This document shows, piece by piece, positions 304 through 7,477 of a DNA stretch of 64,000 bases (positions within the stretch are counted from its first letter, which is position 1; every line of letters starts with the position of its first letter). Location of the stretch: positions 34,749-98,748 of the forward strand of contig NZ_VTPZ01000004.1 in NCBI RefSeq assembly GCF_008638305.1, in the 5' to 3' direction. Made by a program: the position numbers and the translations under genes. Origin of the DNA: Pseudomonas profundi (GTDB lineage Bacteria > Pseudomonadota > Gammaproteobacteria > Pseudomonadales > Pseudomonadaceae). A model generated the notes under the pieces. The model searched no databases. It saw only the letters and a list, made by a program, of their open reading frames with translations, and was not told where the DNA came from.

Positions 304-1278
304 TTAGCGCTTGAATATCTCCTGCGCGGGTTTGTTCTGGATGGTGAAGTCGGTGTCATTCACGCCACCGGCGTTCGGGTCGGTGTACCAGGCCCAGATC
401 GCCAGGCCATCCACCTTGCCGGTTTCGTCGAGGGCGTCGCGCCAGCTGGTCAGCACTTCATTCTGCAGGCCGAGGTTGACGGGTAATTCGCGTTCCTCGG
501 GGCTTTCCCAGGGTGCCGAGAGGCTGCCGGTGGCAGATCGCAGGCCCAGCTCTGCGACCCAGACCCGGCGCTGCGCACGCTGGCCCAACGTGTACAAGCG
601 GTCAGCCATTTCGCGCATTTCGTCGCCGCGGGCTTCCTCGTCGGTCGGCAGCTCTGCGTAGAGGCTGGTGGCCACGACATCGAACAGCGTCCAGTAGCGG
701 AACTGCTCGGCGCTTTCCAGACTGTGGGTCACGTAGACGATGGGGCCGGAGTAAACCTCGCGTACTGCTGTCACCACCGGTTGCCAGTAACCGGAGTTCT
801 GCAGCTGGCGCAACTCGCTGCCGACCACCAGCGCTTCAGCTCCTTCATCCTCTGCGACCTTGGCCAGTTTCAGCAATCCATCCCGATAGGCATGGAACCA
901 GGCCATGCGGTCGGTGGGGGCGGCTTCGCCGGCCCAGCTCTCGGGTATCCACAGGTGGACCTTGAGGATCGGATCCAGACCGGCGTCGCGCATCTGCCGC
1001 AGGCCCGCTGCAACCAGCTCGGGACTGCTGTCGCCGCCAATCACCGGATCATTGGAGTCGGGCTTGGCTTGCCACATGAAGGCGACCAGCAAGGCCTTTT
1101 CAGCTCCACTTGCGGCGAGCCGCTCAAGCGATTCCTGAGCCGCATCGCTGCCCCACTGTGCATCGCCGGATATCTTCACGTTGGCGCCCATCCACATTTC
1201 GGTCTCCTGTGCGAAACCCAATGCGGGGAGCAACATCAACGCAAGCGCGATAAGTTTTCTTTTTGCCATACCCGCCAT
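304..1278 (-). CDS. GH113-like periplasmic glycoside hydrolase of the EPS operon
   Basis: 324-residue secreted protein with an N-terminal signal peptide (KRKLIALALMLLPALGFAQ, cleavage after about residue 23). The rest reads as a single TIM barrel of the GH113/GH-A type. Glu155 in VGSELRQL sits where the acid/base lies, and Glu243 in WVAELGLR where the nucleophile lies. GH113 members are mostly beta-mannanases, but the substrate here is not known. It is the last gene of a five-gene operon, and its start overlaps the end of the upstream membrane-protein gene by about 43 bases. Synthase-dependent polysaccharide operons often carry a matching hydrolase (BcsZ, PslG, AlgL types), so trimming or clearing the operon's own polymer in the periplasm is the likeliest role. 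ATG at 1269 is an alternative start. Family placement is by motif and length only. Confidence 0.72.
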   Translation of the reverse strand: MAGMAKRKLIALALMLLPALGFAQETEMWMGANVKISGDAQWGSDAAQESLERLAASGAEKALLVAFMWQAKPDSNDPVIGGDSSPELVAAGLRQMRDAGLDPILKVHLWIPESWAGEAAPTDRMAWFHAYRDGLLKLAKVAEDEGAEALVVGSELRQLQNSGYWQPVVTAVREVYSGPIVYVTHSLESAEQFRYWTLFDVVATSLYAELPTDEEARGDEMREMADRLYTLGQRAQRRVWVAELGLRSATGSLSAPWESPEERELPVNLGLQNEVLTSWRDALDETGKVDGLAIWAWYTDPNAGGVNDTDFTIQNKPAQEIFKR

Positions 1279-2759
1279 GCCCCTCGTTCATACACTAGTT
1301 GATATCCCGGACGGCCATGCGCCCAAAGCCCGGGGAAATGTAGATTGCTTGCATCTTCCATCGCCTGCTGGCTGCCCGGTTCTGCCACGACGATTTGCGG
1401 AGGCATGCGACTGGGTGTCGCCATCGCCAGCTTGTATCGGTCACTGAAGGGCAGGATCAGGTTGCGGCCGTTGCCGCGGGCAGCGATGACCGCGTAACCG
1501 GTCTGATCATCAATAAGCGTTGGCAGGGACGAGTCCGCGAGCCATACGCCCACCAATGCCTCGTCGGTGATCGGAGCCGGTACGCGCTCGCGCAGTGCCT
1601 GGGTCCAGGGCTGCATATCCGTTGATGGCAACTGTTGCATGACCAGCCAGCCAAGGGGAATGCCCGCCAGCAGCAACGCGGTGACGACCGTTCGCTGGCG
1701 CTGCATTTCACGCAGCCCTAACGCCGCGGCGGCAAGCATCAGGGCGAGAAACTCAACAGGTTCTGATGTGTACCACACCAGGGTCGCCATGGCGCCGGCG
1801 CAGATTGTGACGCAGGCGATGATCACCGGGCCGACCCAGGCGCGAGGTCGCACGTTCCAGGGCGCCAGCAATAGCGAAGGGAATGCCAGCGCGCCTGCCG
1901 CCGTGAGCCAGATCAGCGGCACCCACCATTGCCCGCCAAACTCCAGTAGCCAGGGTAGATAAGGCGTTGATTCGAATCCGCCACGAAATGCCGAGCCCGT
2001 CTGCTTGAGGAAGATCAGTGCATCATTGAAAAACAGCCAGTTGAGATAGGCCCACCCCAATACCGCAAAAACAAAGGGCACATAGCAGACCAGATAAAAC
2101 GCCAGCGGTGCGCGCCGTAGCAATGAAGGCGGCGCGATCAGCACCAGCCAGGGCGCCAGCGCCACTGCAATGAACATGGCCCGGGTATCGACGAAGAACA
2201 GCAGGCACAGCCAGCCGGCAAAGCGCAGATAGCTGAACACCTCCGGATCTTTGCGAAAGCGCCGCAGCGAACGGCTGAGCCCGTAGAAACACAGCAGCCC
2301 GAGCGCCAGATCCTGACCGGATAGTGCGGTCCAGAGAAAGAAGGGATGCGCCGCCAGCAACGTGGTCCAGAGCGTTGCCAACAGCAGGCCATGGGATTTG
2401 TTCAGGTCGCGCCAGACCAGCGTGACGAACAGCGAAGCCAGCACGATATCGAGCAAATAGGGCACCCGCAGCAGGCTGATACCCGGAATGCCGCTCAATA
2501 GCAGTGTCAGGTAGGGCGATACCTGCGGCGAGAGAAACCCCACATCCTCGATATAGAGCCGCGAGGCGTCACGCATGATCAGCACCCGGGCGTAGCGTGC
2601 CAGCGCGTCGCTACCCTGGAATCCGTTGTCCAGGAGGTGCGCGCAGAGTGCCGCCAGCGCCAGTAGCGCAAGCAAAAAGACCAGCAGGCCGCTCGGAAAT
2701 CCGGCGTTACTCTTCCAGCGCGGCCTTACGCTCGTCAGCCATGTACTTGCTGATGCCAT
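1236..2759 (-). CDS. Polytopic membrane protein of the EPS operon, GT-C-like topology
   Basis: 507 residues with roughly ten hydrophobic segments from residue 24 to about 350, followed by a soluble C-terminal part of about 150 residues. The layout (many transmembrane helices, then a non-membrane tail) resembles GT-C glycosyltransferases or polymer-modifying membrane enzymes, but I recognise no diagnostic motif and assign no function. The chosen ATG lies inside the upstream synthase gene, giving a 53-base overlap. No good ATG or GTG exists nearer the first membrane helix. It is co-directional with, and overlaps, both neighbours, so it is almost certainly translated with the polysaccharide genes. 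Possible roles are polymer modification, lipid-linked sugar supply or export. Confidence 0.7.
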   Translation of the reverse strand: MASASTWLTSVRPRWKSNAGFPSGLLVFLLALLALAALCAHLLDNGFQGSDALARYARVLIMRDASRLYIEDVGFLSPQVSPYLTLLLSGIPGISLLRVPYLLDIVLASLFVTLVWRDLNKSHGLLLATLWTTLLAAHPFFLWTALSGQDLALGLLCFYGLSRSLRRFRKDPEVFSYLRFAGWLCLLFFVDTRAMFIAVALAPWLVLIAPPSLLRRAPLAFYLVCYVPFVFAVLGWAYLNWLFFNDALIFLKQTGSAFRGGFESTPYLPWLLEFGGQWWVPLIWLTAAGALAFPSLLLAPWNVRPRAWVGPVIIACVTICAGAMATLVWYTSEPVEFLALMLAAAALGLREMQRQRTVVTALLLAGIPLGWLVMQQLPSTDMQPWTQALRERVPAPITDEALVGVWLADSSLPTLIDDQTGYAVIAARGNGRNLILPFSDRYKLAMATPSRMPPQIVVAEPGSQQAMEDASNLHFPGLWAHGRPGYQLVYERGAWRVWQKENLSRLR

Positions 2760-4611
2760 GGGTAGTCTTTTCCCAATAGAAGGGTTTGCGAATGAGCTGC
2801 CAGAGCCCCTTGTACGCCGCGATCGATTGCAGCATCCAGTAGACAGGAACGGTCAGTGCGTAGGGCGTGAGTCGGAAATAGTCATGCTTGAATCCAGCCA
2901 CTAACGTCATGTAAATGAAGAATCCGTTGCCCAGTAGCAGGTTCAATACGCTCAGGTAGAGCAGCACGGGCGGAAAGGCCACATCAAACAGACGAATCCC
3001 GGCAAACAGCCAGACGAAGTAGATCGCCCATAACAAGGGCGCCGCCAGCGCGGTCAGAAAGTTGCCGCCGATAAAGAACTGGAAACCCCAGAAGCCGCGA
3101 AACCCGGTCGACTTGTAGAGATGCACCGGGTCGCGCATATGCACCAGCCAGGTCTGCATGTAGCCCTTGAACCAGCGCGAACGCTGGCGGATCCAATTGG
3201 GTACGCTGACATTGGCTTCTTCGTAGGTGGTCGAGTTGACCACACTGACGCGGTAGCCGCGTTGGGTCATGCGCACCCCGAGATCCGCATCCTCGGTCAC
3301 GTTGTAGGGATCCCAGGCATTCACGCCGCGCAGTACTTCCAGGCGGAAATGGTTGGAGGTGCCGCCCAGCGGAATGGGGATGCGCAGGTGCTCCAGCGCA
3401 GGCAGATAGAAGTCGAACCAGAGGGTGTATTCCAGCGCGAACATGCGGCTCAGCCAGTTCTCGTGCGCGTTGTAGTAGTTCAGCCGCGCCTGGATACAGG
3501 CCACGTTCGGGTCTGCCTTGCGGAATGCCAGGACGGCGCGCTTGAGCTGATCGGGCTCGGGCTTGTCCTCGGCATCATAGATGGTGATCAGCTCGCCGCG
3601 GGCGAACTGCAGCGCGTAGTTGCACGCCTTGGGCTTGGTCTTGGGCTGCGAAGGCGGTACGCGGATGATCTCGAATATCGCCTCCAGCCCCAGTTCCTTG
3701 GCGGCCTCGATGGTATCGCTGTCGTCCTCTTCAAGCACCAGCTTGATATCGAGCTTGGAAGTCGGGTAGTCGAGGTTGCGCAGCGCGCTGGTGATGATCG
3801 GCAGTACCTCGGGTTCCTTGTACATCGGCACCAGCACCGTGTAGACCGGCAGATCATCCTCGGGAAGATCGGCCAGCTCCTCGTCGGTGATCTTGATATC
3901 GATACGCCGTTTGGCGCCAAACCATACCAGCGCGAAACGCAGACCAAAGGTGGCCAGGAAGGCCGCGGTGATCAATGCGTTGAGCGTAATAATGGTGCTC
4001 ACCGGAAAGAACGCCAGGCCCAGCAAGGTCACGCTTGCCAGCAGATAGAGCACCAGCAGTTGCGGCTGGGTAATGACCTGGCGCGCGGAGTGTTCGGGCG
4101 TGCGCTCGGCCAACAGGTTCAGGGCATCACTGGTCAGTTGATGCTCAGCGCCCTGCTGCAGGCTCCAGAGAATGTCGAACTTGGAGGTGCCGACAAAGAG
4201 CACATCTTCGCCAAAGGTCTTGCGCGCCCACTCGAATACCTCGGGAGTGGGGTCGGCGACGGCTATTACCAGGTTGCCGTATTGGCGCCGCCACGGGATA
4301 GCCAGGCGCTGCGCGAACTCGGGGAACAGCGCGCGATCCACGCTCACTTCCACCGGTTTTTCCAGCAGATTCACGAAACTCAGACCAAACTGCGCGGACA
4401 GCAAACGATAGAACGAGAAGGCGCTGACCCAGCGGTGCGCGAGGACGATATCGCCCAGCCGGGAGCTCCAGCGTTTTTGCAGGCGCAGGGCGGTCTCCAG
4501 CTGCTCGGGTTGCAGCAGCCCCGCGTCCAGCATGCTTTGCCCGATCGGCGTATGCAGCGCGCCGGAATCCGGCATGCGTCCGACGGCAAAAGCGTTACTG
4601 CCAGCGACCAT
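2707..4611 (-). CDS. Processive GT2 polysaccharide synthase with N-terminal MshEN c-di-GMP domain
   Basis: 634 residues from ATG 4611 (GGAG nine bases upstream; an in-frame GTG at 4629 would add six residues). Residues 22-45 and 51-74 form two copies of the 24-residue MshEN c-di-GMP motif, separated by exactly five residues. Copy 1 keeps I-G, M, L, L, Q at the motif positions; copy 2 keeps R-L-G, V, F, L, Q. Two transmembrane helices follow (about 182-230), then a GT2 catalytic domain with DAED (346-349), TED (439-441) and QRSRW (476-480), the D,D,D,Q(Q/R)xRW signature of processive synthases. Three or more helices end the protein. MshEN fused to GT2 is known from NfrB of Escherichia coli, where MshEN is C-terminal; here it is N-terminal. 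The likely role is inner-membrane polymerisation and translocation of a polysaccharide, switched on by c-di-GMP. The sugar is unknown. Confidence 0.85.
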   Translation of the reverse strand: MVAGSNAFAVGRMPDSGALHTPIGQSMLDAGLLQPEQLETALRLQKRWSSRLGDIVLAHRWVSAFSFYRLLSAQFGLSFVNLLEKPVEVSVDRALFPEFAQRLAIPWRRQYGNLVIAVADPTPEVFEWARKTFGEDVLFVGTSKFDILWSLQQGAEHQLTSDALNLLAERTPEHSARQVITQPQLLVLYLLASVTLLGLAFFPVSTIITLNALITAAFLATFGLRFALVWFGAKRRIDIKITDEELADLPEDDLPVYTVLVPMYKEPEVLPIITSALRNLDYPTSKLDIKLVLEEDDSDTIEAAKELGLEAIFEIIRVPPSQPKTKPKACNYALQFARGELITIYDAEDKPEPDQLKRAVLAFRKADPNVACIQARLNYYNAHENWLSRMFALEYTLWFDFYLPALEHLRIPIPLGGTSNHFRLEVLRGVNAWDPYNVTEDADLGVRMTQRGYRVSVVNSTTYEEANVSVPNWIRQRSRWFKGYMQTWLVHMRDPVHLYKSTGFRGFWGFQFFIGGNFLTALAAPLLWAIYFVWLFAGIRLFDVAFPPVLLYLSVLNLLLGNGFFIYMTLVAGFKHDYFRLTPYALTVPVYWMLQSIAAYKGLWQLIRKPFYWEKTTHGISKYMADERKAALEE

Positions 4612-4613
4612 TT

Positions 4614-5504
4614 TTAGAATCTCCACCACGCGGCAACAAAGGGACCGCCTGCGGCGCCGGTGTTACGGCCATCAACCGGCTGCATATAGCCAGCCTGCAG
4701 TTGGAATCCGTCTGACAGCGAGTAGAGCCCAGATAGAGACAGCTTGGTCAGGTCGTAGTCGGTGCTGTTGATGTAGACCAGATCGGGATCGCGCGCTTCC
4801 TCAGGTTGGGTGTTACCGCTGTCATTGCCCAGGCCTTCAATATGGTTGAACTCGCCAATCAGCATCAGCTTCGGTGTCAGTGACAGGCCGACGGTTGCAT
4901 CCGCGCGGACTTCATCCGCGGGGTTGCCGGTGCGCTTGCGCCCGGCGATGCCGGCGTCGATATAGCCTGAACGCTCGCCGAGCATGAAGCCCCGACCAAT
5001 GCTGTAGCGCAGCTCGAAGTGATAGCCGCCTTCGCCCAGCGCCACATCAGCATCTTCGCTGTAGGTAGGCACGCTGACAATGGCTTGCAGGGACCCCACC
5101 CAGTCCTCACTGAAACCCGGATTCAGACGATAGCGCACGCCGAATTCCTGATCGCCGAAGCCACGGGTGGTGTCATCAAAGTCGTCGGCCAGGCTGTCGC
5201 TGCGGTAGCGTACTTCGTTGAAGTAAAAGTTGCCGACCAGCGTCAGATCAGGTGTTAAACCGTGCTCGATATACAGGTTGATTTGGTCCTGGCGGCTGCG
5301 GCCATTGTCATCGAAATGCGTGTGATCGCCGCTGCTGTCGAACACATCGGTGTCGTCGGTATGGCTGAGCTTCAGGATCGTCAGCGTCTTGCCTTCTTCC
5401 TGCACCCAGGCGTTCGCCAGCACCGGCGTGGCAGCCGGCAGTGTCAACAGTGAGATAGCAGCAAATCTGCACAGGGCAGGTCTGAGAAAGGGGAGGGTTT
5501 TCAT
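4614..5504 (-). CDS. Outer-membrane beta-barrel protein of the EPS operon
   Basis: 296 residues from ATG 5504, chosen because it follows a purine-rich AAGGA site and overlaps the upstream stop as ATGA. Residues 1 to about 30 are a clear signal peptide ending TPVLANA. The remainder alternates short amphipathic strands (LYIEHGLTPDLTLVGNFYF, FELRYSIGRG and similar) and ends in an aromatic-rich C-terminus, WWRF, typical of BamA-dependent barrels. It is too short to be a BcsC/AlgE-plus-TPR export channel. Between the BcsB-like gene and the synthase gene, it is the only visible candidate for an outer-membrane exit port or anchor of this system. It could instead be a sensor or adhesin barrel of the transporter/MetA-pathway type. 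Confidence 0.75.
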   Translation of the reverse strand: MKTLPFLRPALCRFAAISLLTLPAATPVLANAWVQEEGKTLTILKLSHTDDTDVFDSSGDHTHFDDNGRSRQDQINLYIEHGLTPDLTLVGNFYFNEVRYRSDSLADDFDDTTRGFGDQEFGVRYRLNPGFSEDWVGSLQAIVSVPTYSEDADVALGEGGYHFELRYSIGRGFMLGERSGYIDAGIAGRKRTGNPADEVRADATVGLSLTPKLMLIGEFNHIEGLGNDSGNTQPEEARDPDLVYINSTDYDLTKLSLSGLYSLSDGFQLQAGYMQPVDGRNTGAAGGPFVAAWWRF

Positions 5505-7477
5505 GATTTTTTCCTTATTCTTCGGGAGACCACAATGGCCACCAGAGTCAATACCACCCAGCCAATGACGAACAACAAGCCGCGATAGCGCGCGAGACGT
5601 TCCCACCAGGTCGAGTAGTCCGGATATTCCACCTTCATCAGGGCATAGTCCCTGGTATCCAGCGATACCAGCACGCCCCGTTCATCACCAAACACCAGGT
5701 CGCCGGTACTTACTTCCAGACCCGGCGGTACCCTTGGCAACCCGTCGTCCAGCGCGCGCAACCAGATGCCCCTTTGGGAGCCGCTGCGCAGCAGACTGGC
5801 GAAGCTGGTCCCTGGCAACTCGCCGGAGTCCAGCAGGATTCTGCCTTCGTTGTCGCGTATTCGCACACGGCCCTGATCAACCGCTATGGAAGCGTCGAAG
5901 CCCTCGGGTGGCTGCGACCCCAGCCATATGAAGGGACGGCTGCCTCCGGGCGCCATCGAGGTGCTGACGAATTCCGCCATGCGCGGGTCGAGTGCCAGAC
6001 TGCGGCCCAGGGACGCCAGCACACTGATCCACTCATGTGGTCGGCCCAGGGCATCAGGGGGCAAATGGACGAAATAACGGTCCGCCAGTTCATAACCGAA
6101 GGCTGCCACACTCTGTGACTGGCCTCCGGCGGGTCTGGTTTCCACGGCCGATGAAGTAAGCAGTTGCGCATAACCCGAGGGCGGTGCGGCGATACACTCA
6201 GCCCCCGGCCGGATCAGCAATACGCGGATCGGCTCGGAAGCGGTGGGGTTAACCTCATTCAGGCCGACGCGTACCGATTGCGGGCCGCCATCCGGTGAGA
6301 GCTGCTGAACGGCGCGCAACATATTGTCCTGCATAACGTACAGCGTCAGCGGTTGCTCAGCCGGGCTGGGCGGCACGACCAGGTTCAGATTTAGCGCGGT
6401 CGGCAGGCGGCCGGCGGGCAGGGCATTGGTATCTATGGCCCATTCAGCGCGGTCAGCGAAGGGCCGCGCATTGCCGTCTACGCCAAGTTGTATCAGCTGG
6501 ACCGAATCCTTGGACGGAGTTGGCGCTGGGGAACTGATGCTTTCGGGATAGCCGGAACTGGTCAGCAGCGCGCCCCAGGGATCGGCGAGGGCATCGATGT
6601 AGAACGGCTCGGTCACCGCCAGTAACCGGGAAGTGGGCTGTTGCGGGTCAGGCGCTACCACGTCGATATTATGCCCGGCCGCCAGGCGCACCCCGGTCTG
6701 GACGAGCTCTCGGCGCGAGGCGATGACGATGTCTGCACCGTTCTCGAGGCCGGTGTGTTCCACGTCATGCCCGCGCTCTTGCAACTCATGTGTCAGCAGC
6801 CAGGCGGCACGCAGGGCTTCCGGGTCGGGTGCCGGCTGGGATATGGCGATACGCACGTCATGCGGCAGCGTACTGATATAACCGCGCACACTCGGCGCCG
6901 GGCCCTGGTCGAGCTGGTAAGCGATAGCGGTTTCCGGTTCGATGGTCAGATAGGTCTGTTGAGCGCGCGGCGATGTGCAACGATCCATCGGGACGTTGGA
7001 CCTGGCGCGCACGCGGACCTGCAGGTAAGGCAGGCGCAGATCCTCTTGCTGCAACGGGACCGAGAGCATTCTGGTCTCGGCCATTGCGCCGTTTTCGGTG
7101 GACGGTGACGTGGCATCCTCGCTGATATCCGCCACGCCGATATTTTCCCGTGGCGTACCGTTGATCAGCACCTGCAAGGAGGCATCCGGGCCCAGCCAGG
7201 CGGCGGGAGAATAATGCAGTTCGAGCCGGGGTTCGCTGACCTGTGCATCCAGCGGCATGGGCATATTGAAGGCCACGCTGCCCTCGGCGGTGATCTGCTG
7301 CAGGCCTTGATAATGGCCCAGAGAGCCTAGCGTGCGGGTTATATATTGCGTTGCGGGTGCATCACCAGGAGGCGGATTATCAGGCTGTTCGTCAGTTTGT
7401 TGAGCATGGGTCGGTACCGACACAAGAATTACGCAACATAGTAGCCAATTCGGCATCCAGCCGAGTGTCGGTCTCAT
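5501..7477 (-). CDS. BcsB-like periplasmic carbohydrate-binding subunit
   Basis: 658 residues: signal peptide (about 1-25, ending THAQ), a long periplasmic region of beta-rich repeats, and a single C-terminal transmembrane helix (about 632-651) followed by the basic tail RRIRKKS. This is the architecture of BcsB, which guides nascent cellulose through the periplasm and docks on the synthase through its C-terminal helix. Segments such as GYISTLPHDVRIAI and the fold-typical LxxG strands fit the BcsB family. It is shorter than enterobacterial BcsB (about 780). First gene of the operon; its TGA overlaps the ATG of the barrel gene. No BcsC, BcsD, BcsZ or PilZ-type BcsA is present, so this is not a standard cellulose operon. 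Confidence 0.75.
   Translation of the reverse strand: MRPTLGWMPNWLLCCVILVSVPTHAQQTDEQPDNPPPGDAPATQYITRTLGSLGHYQGLQQITAEGSVAFNMPMPLDAQVSEPRLELHYSPAAWLGPDASLQVLINGTPRENIGVADISEDATSPSTENGAMAETRMLSVPLQQEDLRLPYLQVRVRARSNVPMDRCTSPRAQQTYLTIEPETAIAYQLDQGPAPSVRGYISTLPHDVRIAISQPAPDPEALRAAWLLTHELQERGHDVEHTGLENGADIVIASRRELVQTGVRLAAGHNIDVVAPDPQQPTSRLLAVTEPFYIDALADPWGALLTSSGYPESISSPAPTPSKDSVQLIQLGVDGNARPFADRAEWAIDTNALPAGRLPTALNLNLVVPPSPAEQPLTLYVMQDNMLRAVQQLSPDGGPQSVRVGLNEVNPTASEPIRVLLIRPGAECIAAPPSGYAQLLTSSAVETRPAGGQSQSVAAFGYELADRYFVHLPPDALGRPHEWISVLASLGRSLALDPRMAEFVSTSMAPGGSRPFIWLGSQPPEGFDASIAVDQGRVRIRDNEGRILLDSGELPGTSFASLLRSGSQRGIWLRALDDGLPRVPPGLEVSTGDLVFGDERGVLVSLDTRDYALMKVEYPDYSTWWERLARYRGLLFVIGWVVLTLVAIVVSRRIRKKS

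Follow-up and report, generated by a model that had tools for sequence, protein, structure and literature searches.

A probable xag-type exopolysaccharide operon opening with a BcsB-like gene in Pseudomonas profundi

Described xag and stalk clusters and the operon of the window

The xagABCD genes of Xanthomonas and the related clusters of stalk-forming iron oxidisers are the closest described counterparts of a five-gene operon at positions 304-7477 of a 64,000-nucleotide stretch of DNA from Pseudomonas profundi (assembly GCF_008638305.1, contig NZ_VTPZ01000004.1, positions 34,749 to 98,748; hereafter "the window"). In X. oryzae pv. oryzicola, xagABCD is up-regulated in a mutant of rpfG, which encodes a regulator that degrades cyclic diguanosine monophosphate (c-di-GMP), and this mutant forms more biofilm, an increase that is cut back when xagA or xagB is deleted (PMC3609779). 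Homologues of XagA to XagD are also mentioned for X. citri (PMC3633832). The stalk-forming Ferriphaselus and Mariprofundus carry the arrangement bcsB-xagB-xagC-xagD, and xagA was not found in two Ferriphaselus genomes (PMC4643136). In the published stalk cluster sfz1-6, sfz1 encodes a BcsB-like protein, sfz2 a glycosyltransferase and sfz4 a glycosyl hydrolase, while sfz3 and sfz5 were left without an assigned function (PMC8250860); the sfz genes serve as putative stalk markers (PMC12607638). In Achromobacter, a BcsB homologue is clustered with nfrA, nfrB and wecB, NfrB being a glycosyltransferase with an MshEN domain (PMC8669472). The available text of a survey of synthase-dependent operons does not contain the term "xag" (PMC7112194), and a search of the open-licence literature found no publication that assigns a fold to XagC or places Sfz5 in a family.

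An earlier note, made from the letters of the window alone, had described a synthase-dependent polysaccharide system encoded by five overlapping minus-strand genes, which matched no named operon and might define a separate class. The genes are indeed present as five uninterrupted open reading frames (ORFs) that overlap end to end, by 4, 16, 53 and 43 bases between successive genes, with nothing interposed (Table 1), and the proposed division of labour among their products holds. The start of XagA is the ATG at the 5504 end, the mechanical ORF extending to 5606. Likewise, the absence of a BcsC-type exporter with tetratricopeptide repeats (TPR) is true within the operon, the remainder of the 4.2 Mb genome not having been searched for one. 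The claim of novelty did not survive: xagABCD (PMC3609779) and bcsB-xagB-xagC-xagD (PMC4643136; PMC8250860) had already been published, and the operon very probably belongs to the xag type, i.e., a BcsB-like gene followed by xagABCD, rather than to a new class. Its five-gene make-up unites these two published arrangements. The note had made its proposal depend on whether the same order was already described with a known polymer, and here the literature answers only half, because the order is described in two parts and the available accounts do not identify the xag polymer.

The assignment is carried by homology and by gene order. Seventeen Xanthomonas homologues share 67-72% identity with XagB, and XagA is 48-57% identical to five Xanthomonas barrels adjoining xagB, XagC 29-47% identical to four Xanthomonas homologues and XagD 55-61% identical to its Xanthomonas homologues (each compared with the nearer of two query proteins); with homologues from the stalk clusters, XagB shares 54-58% and XagC 24-33% identity. 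The search of this neighbourhood across genomes, which the earlier note had proposed, recovered the order BcsB-barrel-GT2-XagC-GH113 in eight of 83 loci, i.e., five of the source genus, Halopseudomonas, and those of Pseudoxanthomonas composti, Nguyenibacter vanlangensis and Gluconacetobacter diazotrophicus (GT2 and GH113 denote glycosyltransferase family 2 and glycoside hydrolase family 113). Since the order is repeated in the carriers of the genus and in these three species, it is not due to chance. The 83 loci comprise the best 80 of 542 relatives from a contig scan with the GT2 alignment, together with L006, L007 and the window, and are a biased sample because only these best 80 were kept. 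In the 17 Xanthomonas loci, the order is barrel-GT2-XagC-GH113, i.e., xagABCD. Overall, an xag-type synthase-dependent exopolysaccharide system is, with good confidence, the best explanation of the locus.

Table 1. Features of the operon in window coordinates (columns: feature, position, strand, basis of the call)
BcsB-like periplasmic subunit, 658 aa, encoded by the opening gene	5501..7477	-	Pfam BcsB, profile, hhalign
XagA outer-membrane beta-barrel, 296 aa, proposed export channel	4614..5504	-	Xanthomonas identity, AlphaFold2 model, 4rl8 profile match
XagB, N-terminal MshEN and processive GT2 synthase, 640 aa	2707..4629	-	Pfam/NCBIfam, Xanthomonas identity, motifs
MshEN region of XagB, residues 28-159, putative c-di-GMP receptor	4153..4548	-	Pfam MshEN, NCBIfam c-di-GMP_motif
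GT2 catalytic region of XagB, residues 263-488	3166..3843	-	Pfam, motif conservation
XagC polytopic membrane protein, 507 aa, predicted GT-C fold	1236..2759	-	AlphaFold2 model, ArnT match
XagD GH113-family glycosidase, 324 aa	304..1278	-	Pfam GH113, PDB mannanases, conserved Glu

The synthase and the BcsB-like subunit

The reading of XagB as a processive GT2 enzyme bearing MshEN stands, both families lying above their profile cut-offs. The GT2 profile matches with E 2.2e-23, and the catalytic motifs (D303, D352-x-E354-D355, T445-E-D, Q482-R-S-R-W) are kept in 82-83 of the 83 rows. For MshEN, Pfam gives 30.4 bits (cut-off 23.1) and the NCBIfam c-di-GMP motif 43.6 (cut-off 38); the consensus of this domain consists of tandem RLG motifs, and it occurs also in fusion with glycosyltransferases (PMC5013675). 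G30 (kept in 77 of 83 rows) and G59 (54 of 83) are read as the equivalents of G491 and G519 in NfrB, changes of which abolish or reduce phage killing (PMC8669472). These sequence features make XagB a putative c-di-GMP receptor. Its regulation by c-di-GMP is likely, a link to which the neighbourhood also points, with a CBS-GGDEF-EAL gene beside the operon in two sister genomes and REC-GGDEF genes after xagC in L063 and L066, although the MshEN motifs are partly degenerate.

The BcsB-like protein begins with a signal-peptide-like N-terminus and ends in a C-terminal anchor (both read by eye). It passes the Pfam model BcsB (PF03170) with 21.3 bits at a gathering cut-off of 21, and the same model is matched by 36 of 40 homologues (E<=0.01). 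A profile of these 40 homologues matches eight PDB cellulose synthase B chain sequences (E 1.1e-4 to 0.0021, profile positions 14-208). The proposed BcsB kinship was borne out by hhalign, in which a set of 62 xag-type BcsB-like sequences aligns with nine BcsB proteins encoded beside xagABCD in Xanthomonas at a probability of 97% over 499 columns. On the NCBIfam models of cellulose BcsB (PRK11114) the protein reaches 14.2 bits, under the cut-off of 945, and a single-sequence search of PDB returned mainly antibody chains, which are chance matches. A relative of this subunit occurs in Xanthomonas AmX2 (L014:13558-19106), in which xagABCD is followed by wecB (TIGR00236, 442 bits, cut-off 210), a BcsB-like gene of the xag subfamily and an NfrB-related GT2 gene whose product has C-terminal MshE-type motifs (652 bits on NfrB, cut-off 1170; 1148 on PRK15489, cut-off 537). 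Because hhalign joins the AmX2 protein closely with the xag set (100%, E 7.8e-48) but gives only 2.9% with the cellulose set, we predict from sequence that xag and an Nfr-related system share one BcsB subfamily, a connection that appears to be new.

Two described machineries resemble the locus closely enough to be weighed against the xag type. It is improbable that the locus represents a divergent cellulose (Bcs) operon, in which a barrel would stand in for BcsC and the product would be a beta-glucan. The BcsB-like subunit is homologous to BcsB over much of its length, CelA is the best NCBIfam match of XagB, and a GH5 cellulase-family gene stands 2-3 kb beyond the operon; however, the CelA match (TIGR03030) amounts to 52 bits against a cut-off of 699, compared to 902 for the bcsA of Xanthomonas L015, Pfam Cellulose_synt has zero matches in the source genome, the regulatory domain is an N-terminal MshEN where L015 bcsA has PilZ, and the hydrolase of the operon is GH113 and not GH8, the usual hydrolase of bcs operons. 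Moreover, nine of the 17 Xanthomonas loci carry a BcsB gene with an adjacent GT2 gene a few kb downstream of xagABCD, so that BcsB and xagABCD coexist in the same stretch; in L015 this pair consists of cellulose genes by both CelA (902 bits, cut-off 699) and BcsB (894, cut-off 750). Slightly less probable still is an Nfr-like system making a polymer of N-acetylmannosamine (ManNAc), which would share MshEN and GT2 with the locus and for which the AmX2 protein of the xag subfamily, encoded between wecB and the NfrB-related GT2 gene, might speak. XagB reaches 28 bits on NfrB (NF008411), against a cut-off of 1170, its MshEN domain is N-terminal where that of NfrB is C-terminal, NfrA is missing within the operon, and a wecB homologue was found in one of 83 loci by a search confined to the loci. 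Two further candidates were rejected: for poly-N-acetylglucosamine, XagB scores 34.2 bits on PgaC/IcaA (TIGR03937; cut-off 422.3), and for the arabinose-containing polysaccharide of Sinorhizobium, the plasmid rows cover approximately 37% of XagB at approximately 25% identity, without the MshEN part.

Barrel, membrane protein, hydrolase and the proposed mechanism

XagA alone matches no Pfam or NCBIfam family, and Phenol_MetA_deg of Pfam is matched by seven of 48 members of its family. The AlphaFold2 model (pLDDT 88.5) has about 12 long strands, counting residues 109-127 as one, and is nearest to the COG4313 channel 4rl8 (Z 24.1, root-mean-square deviation (rmsd) 2.7, 244 aligned), with FapF 5o65 close behind (Z 23.4, rmsd 2.7, 236 aligned); the XagA profile also matches the 4rl8 sequence (E 1.5e-6). 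Mariprofundus and some gammaproteobacteria encode a barrel after GH113, and these barrels align with those of Halopseudomonas, Xanthomonas and Acetobacteraceae at an hhalign probability of 98.7% (E 1.6e-16, 252 columns), as do the alphaproteobacterial barrels at 100% (E 5e-40), compared to at most 0.6% for five control pairs with non-barrel families and at most 1.1% for three TonB-receptor-like ORFs (one Pfam-confirmed) against three barrel groups. The 315-aa barrel of M. ferrooxydans PV-1 fits sfz5 by place and length. Because of this strong barrel-barrel alignment and the low control scores, Sfz5 is probably a homologue of XagA or a close cousin within the COG4313-type superfamily, a predicted relationship that appears to be new; the link could partly reflect that shared superfamily. 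Up to six rounds of iterated search, in which drift is possible, enlarged the XagA family, and the model alignments were hand-picked subsets of the matches (XagC 49 of 81, XagA 48 of 71, BcsB-like 40 of 72). In the Ferriphaselus locus L040, no barrel was found, in agreement with PMC4643136.

XagC has no match in Pfam or NCBIfam, and its profile has none among PDB sequences. In Foldseek, the AlphaFold2 model built from 49 homologues (pLDDT 91.0, pTM 0.91) has 13 matches at E<=0.001, all of which are GT-C enzymes or chains of GT-C-centred complexes, with modest TM-scores of 0.43-0.55 by query length. VIA-align places ArnT first (5f15, Z 20.0, rmsd 5.7, 406 aligned) and second (5ezm, Z 19.7, rmsd 5.5, 409 aligned), followed by Pmt4, ALG12 and OST; helical models can reach Z 14 without a clear match, a level that XagC exceeds. 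The model thus supports a GT-C fold nearest to the lipid-sugar transferase ArnT, apparently a new assignment. The structural matches back the fold; against catalysis speaks that the acid expected after the first transmembrane segment is not invariant: D or E occurs within residues 49-55, in the first periplasmic loop, in 39 of 49 homologues, and of the four Xanthomonas rows those of L012, L015 and L016, unlike that of L014, lack the stretch. This variability would fit a non-catalytic GT-C-fold scaffold with an undecorated homopolymer as the product, as would the presence among the structural matches of PIGU from the glycosylphosphatidylinositol transamidase, a GT-C-fold subunit that is not known to be catalytic; with ArnT at the top of the VIA-align list and most homologues retaining the acid, the scaffold is credited with somewhat less than an even chance. 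Rather unlikely, if conceivable from the model, is an active XagC that would use undecaprenyl-phosphate-linked sugar to decorate the chain of XagB during extrusion, with export via the COG4313-type barrel. If this were true, xag-type systems, including the iron-stalk clusters, would make a branched or substituted polymer, and a processive synthase and a lipid-linked periplasmic glycosyltransferase would be joined in one machine, a combination that is not known from any synthase-dependent system.

XagD, with its signal-peptide-like N-terminus (read by eye), matches Pfam GH113 with E 5.9e-30 and 105 bits (cut-off 27), and GH113 mannanases in PDB match it with a best E of 2.3e-12. E155 and E243, which we take to be the catalytic Glu pair of GH113, are invariant in all 52 GH113 rows and align with Glu residues of the mannanase 4cd6. 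BcsZ and similar hydrolases are analogues for reading a backbone from the type of hydrolase. Because the solved relatives of XagD are mannanases, this analogy permits the guess that the backbone might hold beta-mannosyl-type linkages. A mannan was also argued from genes for guanosine diphosphate mannose (GDP-mannose), an argument that was set aside as weak because a ManC homologue lies near only four of 83 loci, and a single Niveispirillum/Azospirillum group accounts for three of these.

For the xag-type system, the following sequence of events is conceivable. Judging by the BcsA and NfrB families, XagB would polymerise a nucleotide sugar and push the chain across the inner membrane, at whose periplasmic exit the BcsB-like protein may stand as BcsB does for BcsA; the homology of the two is evident, the role is borrowed. 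On the periplasmic face, XagC might attach a sugar from a lipid-linked donor, or else it might act as a non-catalytic scaffold. The chain could leave via the single XagA barrel, a predicted fold, instead of a TPR exporter, and XagD, by its family and conserved Glu residues, could trim or release chains. As the product, one would expect a polysaccharide of biofilm or adhesion. Our confidence in this full mechanism is lower than in the xag identity of the operon.

Several observations weigh against the xag-type reading or parts of it. COG4313 and FapF barrels are not known as polysaccharide exporters. The arginine of MshEN motif I is replaced by proline in XagB and missing in most of the 83 rows, and motif II keeps RLG but shows R66-W67 instead of the Gly and aliphatic residue of the consensus. 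None of the 17 Xanthomonas loci has a BcsB-like gene in front of xagA, and six of these 17 genomes, drafts among them, lack a BcsB relative by either profile. Because of these six, the subunit is not universally needed, and the idea that Xanthomonas borrows BcsB from its cellulose operon, possible in ten of the 17 genomes, was rejected. The CBS-GGDEF-EAL gene that runs towards the 3' end of xagD in the two same-site sister genomes, G541 and P. saliphila (by Pfam in one, the other being 90% identical), is absent beside the source operon, and no close copy was found in the source genome, where the best of 30 GGDEF/EAL matches is 48% identical. Either the gene was lost in the source genome or the assembly is faulty there. 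In published accounts, single deletions of xagA or xagB leave virulence unchanged and, unlike that of gumD, lower total exopolysaccharide little (PMC3609779), and the available texts identify no polymer for xag systems.

Beyond xagD, the stretch L001:15333-16400 (window position 1 being L001:16001) contains a tandem repeat array and a single N at L001:16000, just outside the window, with an apparent second copy of the 3' end of xagD beside them. This is probably an assembly junction, at the place where the two sister genomes have the CBS-GGDEF-EAL gene.

Distribution and comparison with known systems

According to the XagC profile, seven of 37 genomes of the genus carry the system, the source genome included, and all seven (the window, G090, G021, G541, G535, G546 and G544, the second and third being L006 and L007 and the last four L108-L111) share the identical five-gene order. 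In the family, the BcsB-like protein occurs in three of 148 genomes, all of the source genus and the source genome among them; in a sample of the phylum, XagC occurs in at least 21 of 398 genomes, source included, with one weak match, a lower bound since up to three candidates per genome were scored. One of 72,556 plasmid records encodes the BcsB-like protein (E<=1e-5). Among the matches listed, the closest named relatives of XagB are those of Pseudomonas saliphila (96%) and a Halopseudomonas xinjiangensis metagenome-assembled genome (74%). One chromosomal site is common to the window, P. saliphila and G541, and another to G021 and G090; this, with the patchy distribution, suggests horizontal transfer. 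The XagB tree unites the genus, Xanthomonadaceae and two Acetobacteraceae with a support of 0.997; the genus and Xanthomonadaceae alone are joined with a weaker 0.52-0.68.

Across the 83 loci, an XagC homologue is present in 81, a BcsB relative in 71 (ten of them Xanthomonas BcsB downstream of xagABCD, leaving 61 of the xag type), a barrel in 70 and GH113 in 52, counts that are limited by contigs stopping inside the cluster. L030-L035 (Mariprofundus and related loci) have the barrel after GH113. Many alphaproteobacterial loci place it behind XagC with one gene between, and their GH113, if present, is divergent. Over-long ORFs led the automatic classification of gene order astray in some loci: L052, L054, L077 and L082 are filed as "noBB" despite a BcsB-like match in the locus listing, L019 is filed as "noOM" with a barrel further upstream, and a single ORF of L058 matches both families.

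Neighbouring genes vary. Upstream of the operon lie a thioesterase gene and then a mechanosensitive channel gene; on the other side, the GH5 cellulase-family gene (L001:12866-14002) lies on the same strand and encodes a lipoprotein-like N-terminus. A hybrid histidine kinase (PAS, HisKA, REC; 1030-1041 aa) is convergent with the operon in G090 (L006:990-4082) and G021 (L007:1075-4200). Response regulator genes follow xagC in alphaproteobacterial loci (L063:13356-14387, L066:13316-14293, L059:13413-14357 and L005:17390-18319); two of these four, L063 and L066, are REC-GGDEF proteins with GGDEF above cut-off, and that of L005 has an Hpt protein nearby (L005:10072-10680). After removal of sixteen near-duplicates, 67 loci were left for counting neighbour families: a CotH-kinase gene family follows the barrel in 13 (Pfam confirms CotH in all three members tested), and a family resembling TLC ATP/ADP transporters occurs in 12, upstream in L029 (TLC confirmed in four of four). 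Both recur together (L029-L031, L033-L035, L045, L047-L049, L056, L064 and L073), a pairing that suggests an extracytoplasmic kinase fed with ATP by a translocase; an antiporter adjoining sfz has been described (PMC8250860). On plasmids, Neorhizobium galegae encodes an MshEN-type GT2 (L008:7548-9464) approximately 40% identical to XagB over residues 139-624; neither this gene nor the GT2 gene of a Mycobacterium plasmid (L009) has another operon member adjoining.

Assigning this operon, which had seemed unclassified, to a named system links the literatures on Xanthomonas xag biofilms, the stalks of iron oxidisers and Nfr, in which the xag machinery figures as an aid to Xanthomonas biofilm and as a candidate maker of iron stalks. 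It also provides testable roles for two stalk-cluster proteins, Sfz3 as XagC with a predicted GT-C fold and Sfz5 as a probable XagA-type barrel, and with Halopseudomonas a further host, beyond plant pathogens and iron oxidisers, in which the polymer of these clusters may be found.

With xagABCD of Xanthomonas, the Halopseudomonas operon shares four genes in the same order, A-B-C-D, but it opens with the BcsB-like gene, and three of four Xanthomonas XagC rows have a shortened first periplasmic loop. The stalk clusters (bcsB-xagBCD, i.e., sfb1-4 or sfz1-4) have homologues of the BcsB-like protein, the MshEN-GT2 synthase, XagC and XagD in the same order; they lack a barrel between bcsB and xagB, where the source operon has xagA, and in the loci of Mariprofundus xagD is followed by a barrel gene, which position and length mark as sfz5, and then mostly by the CotH-kinase and TLC-type genes. 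Cellulose secretion by Bcs also combines a BcsB-type subunit with a processive GT2, whereas the source operon has MshEN instead of PilZ, a TPR-less barrel in the place of BcsC, GH113 instead of GH8 and an additional protein of predicted GT-C fold. NfrAB, the N4 glycan receptor of E. coli (PMC8669472; PMC8669469), likewise has an MshEN-bearing GT2, and a BcsB homologue stands beside nfrAB in Achromobacter (PMC8669472) and a related GT2 in Xanthomonas AmX2; in contrast, MshEN is C-terminal in NfrB and N-terminal in XagB, NfrA has TPR units, and the Nfr system depends on WecB for uridine diphosphate ManNAc (PMC8669472; PMC8669469).

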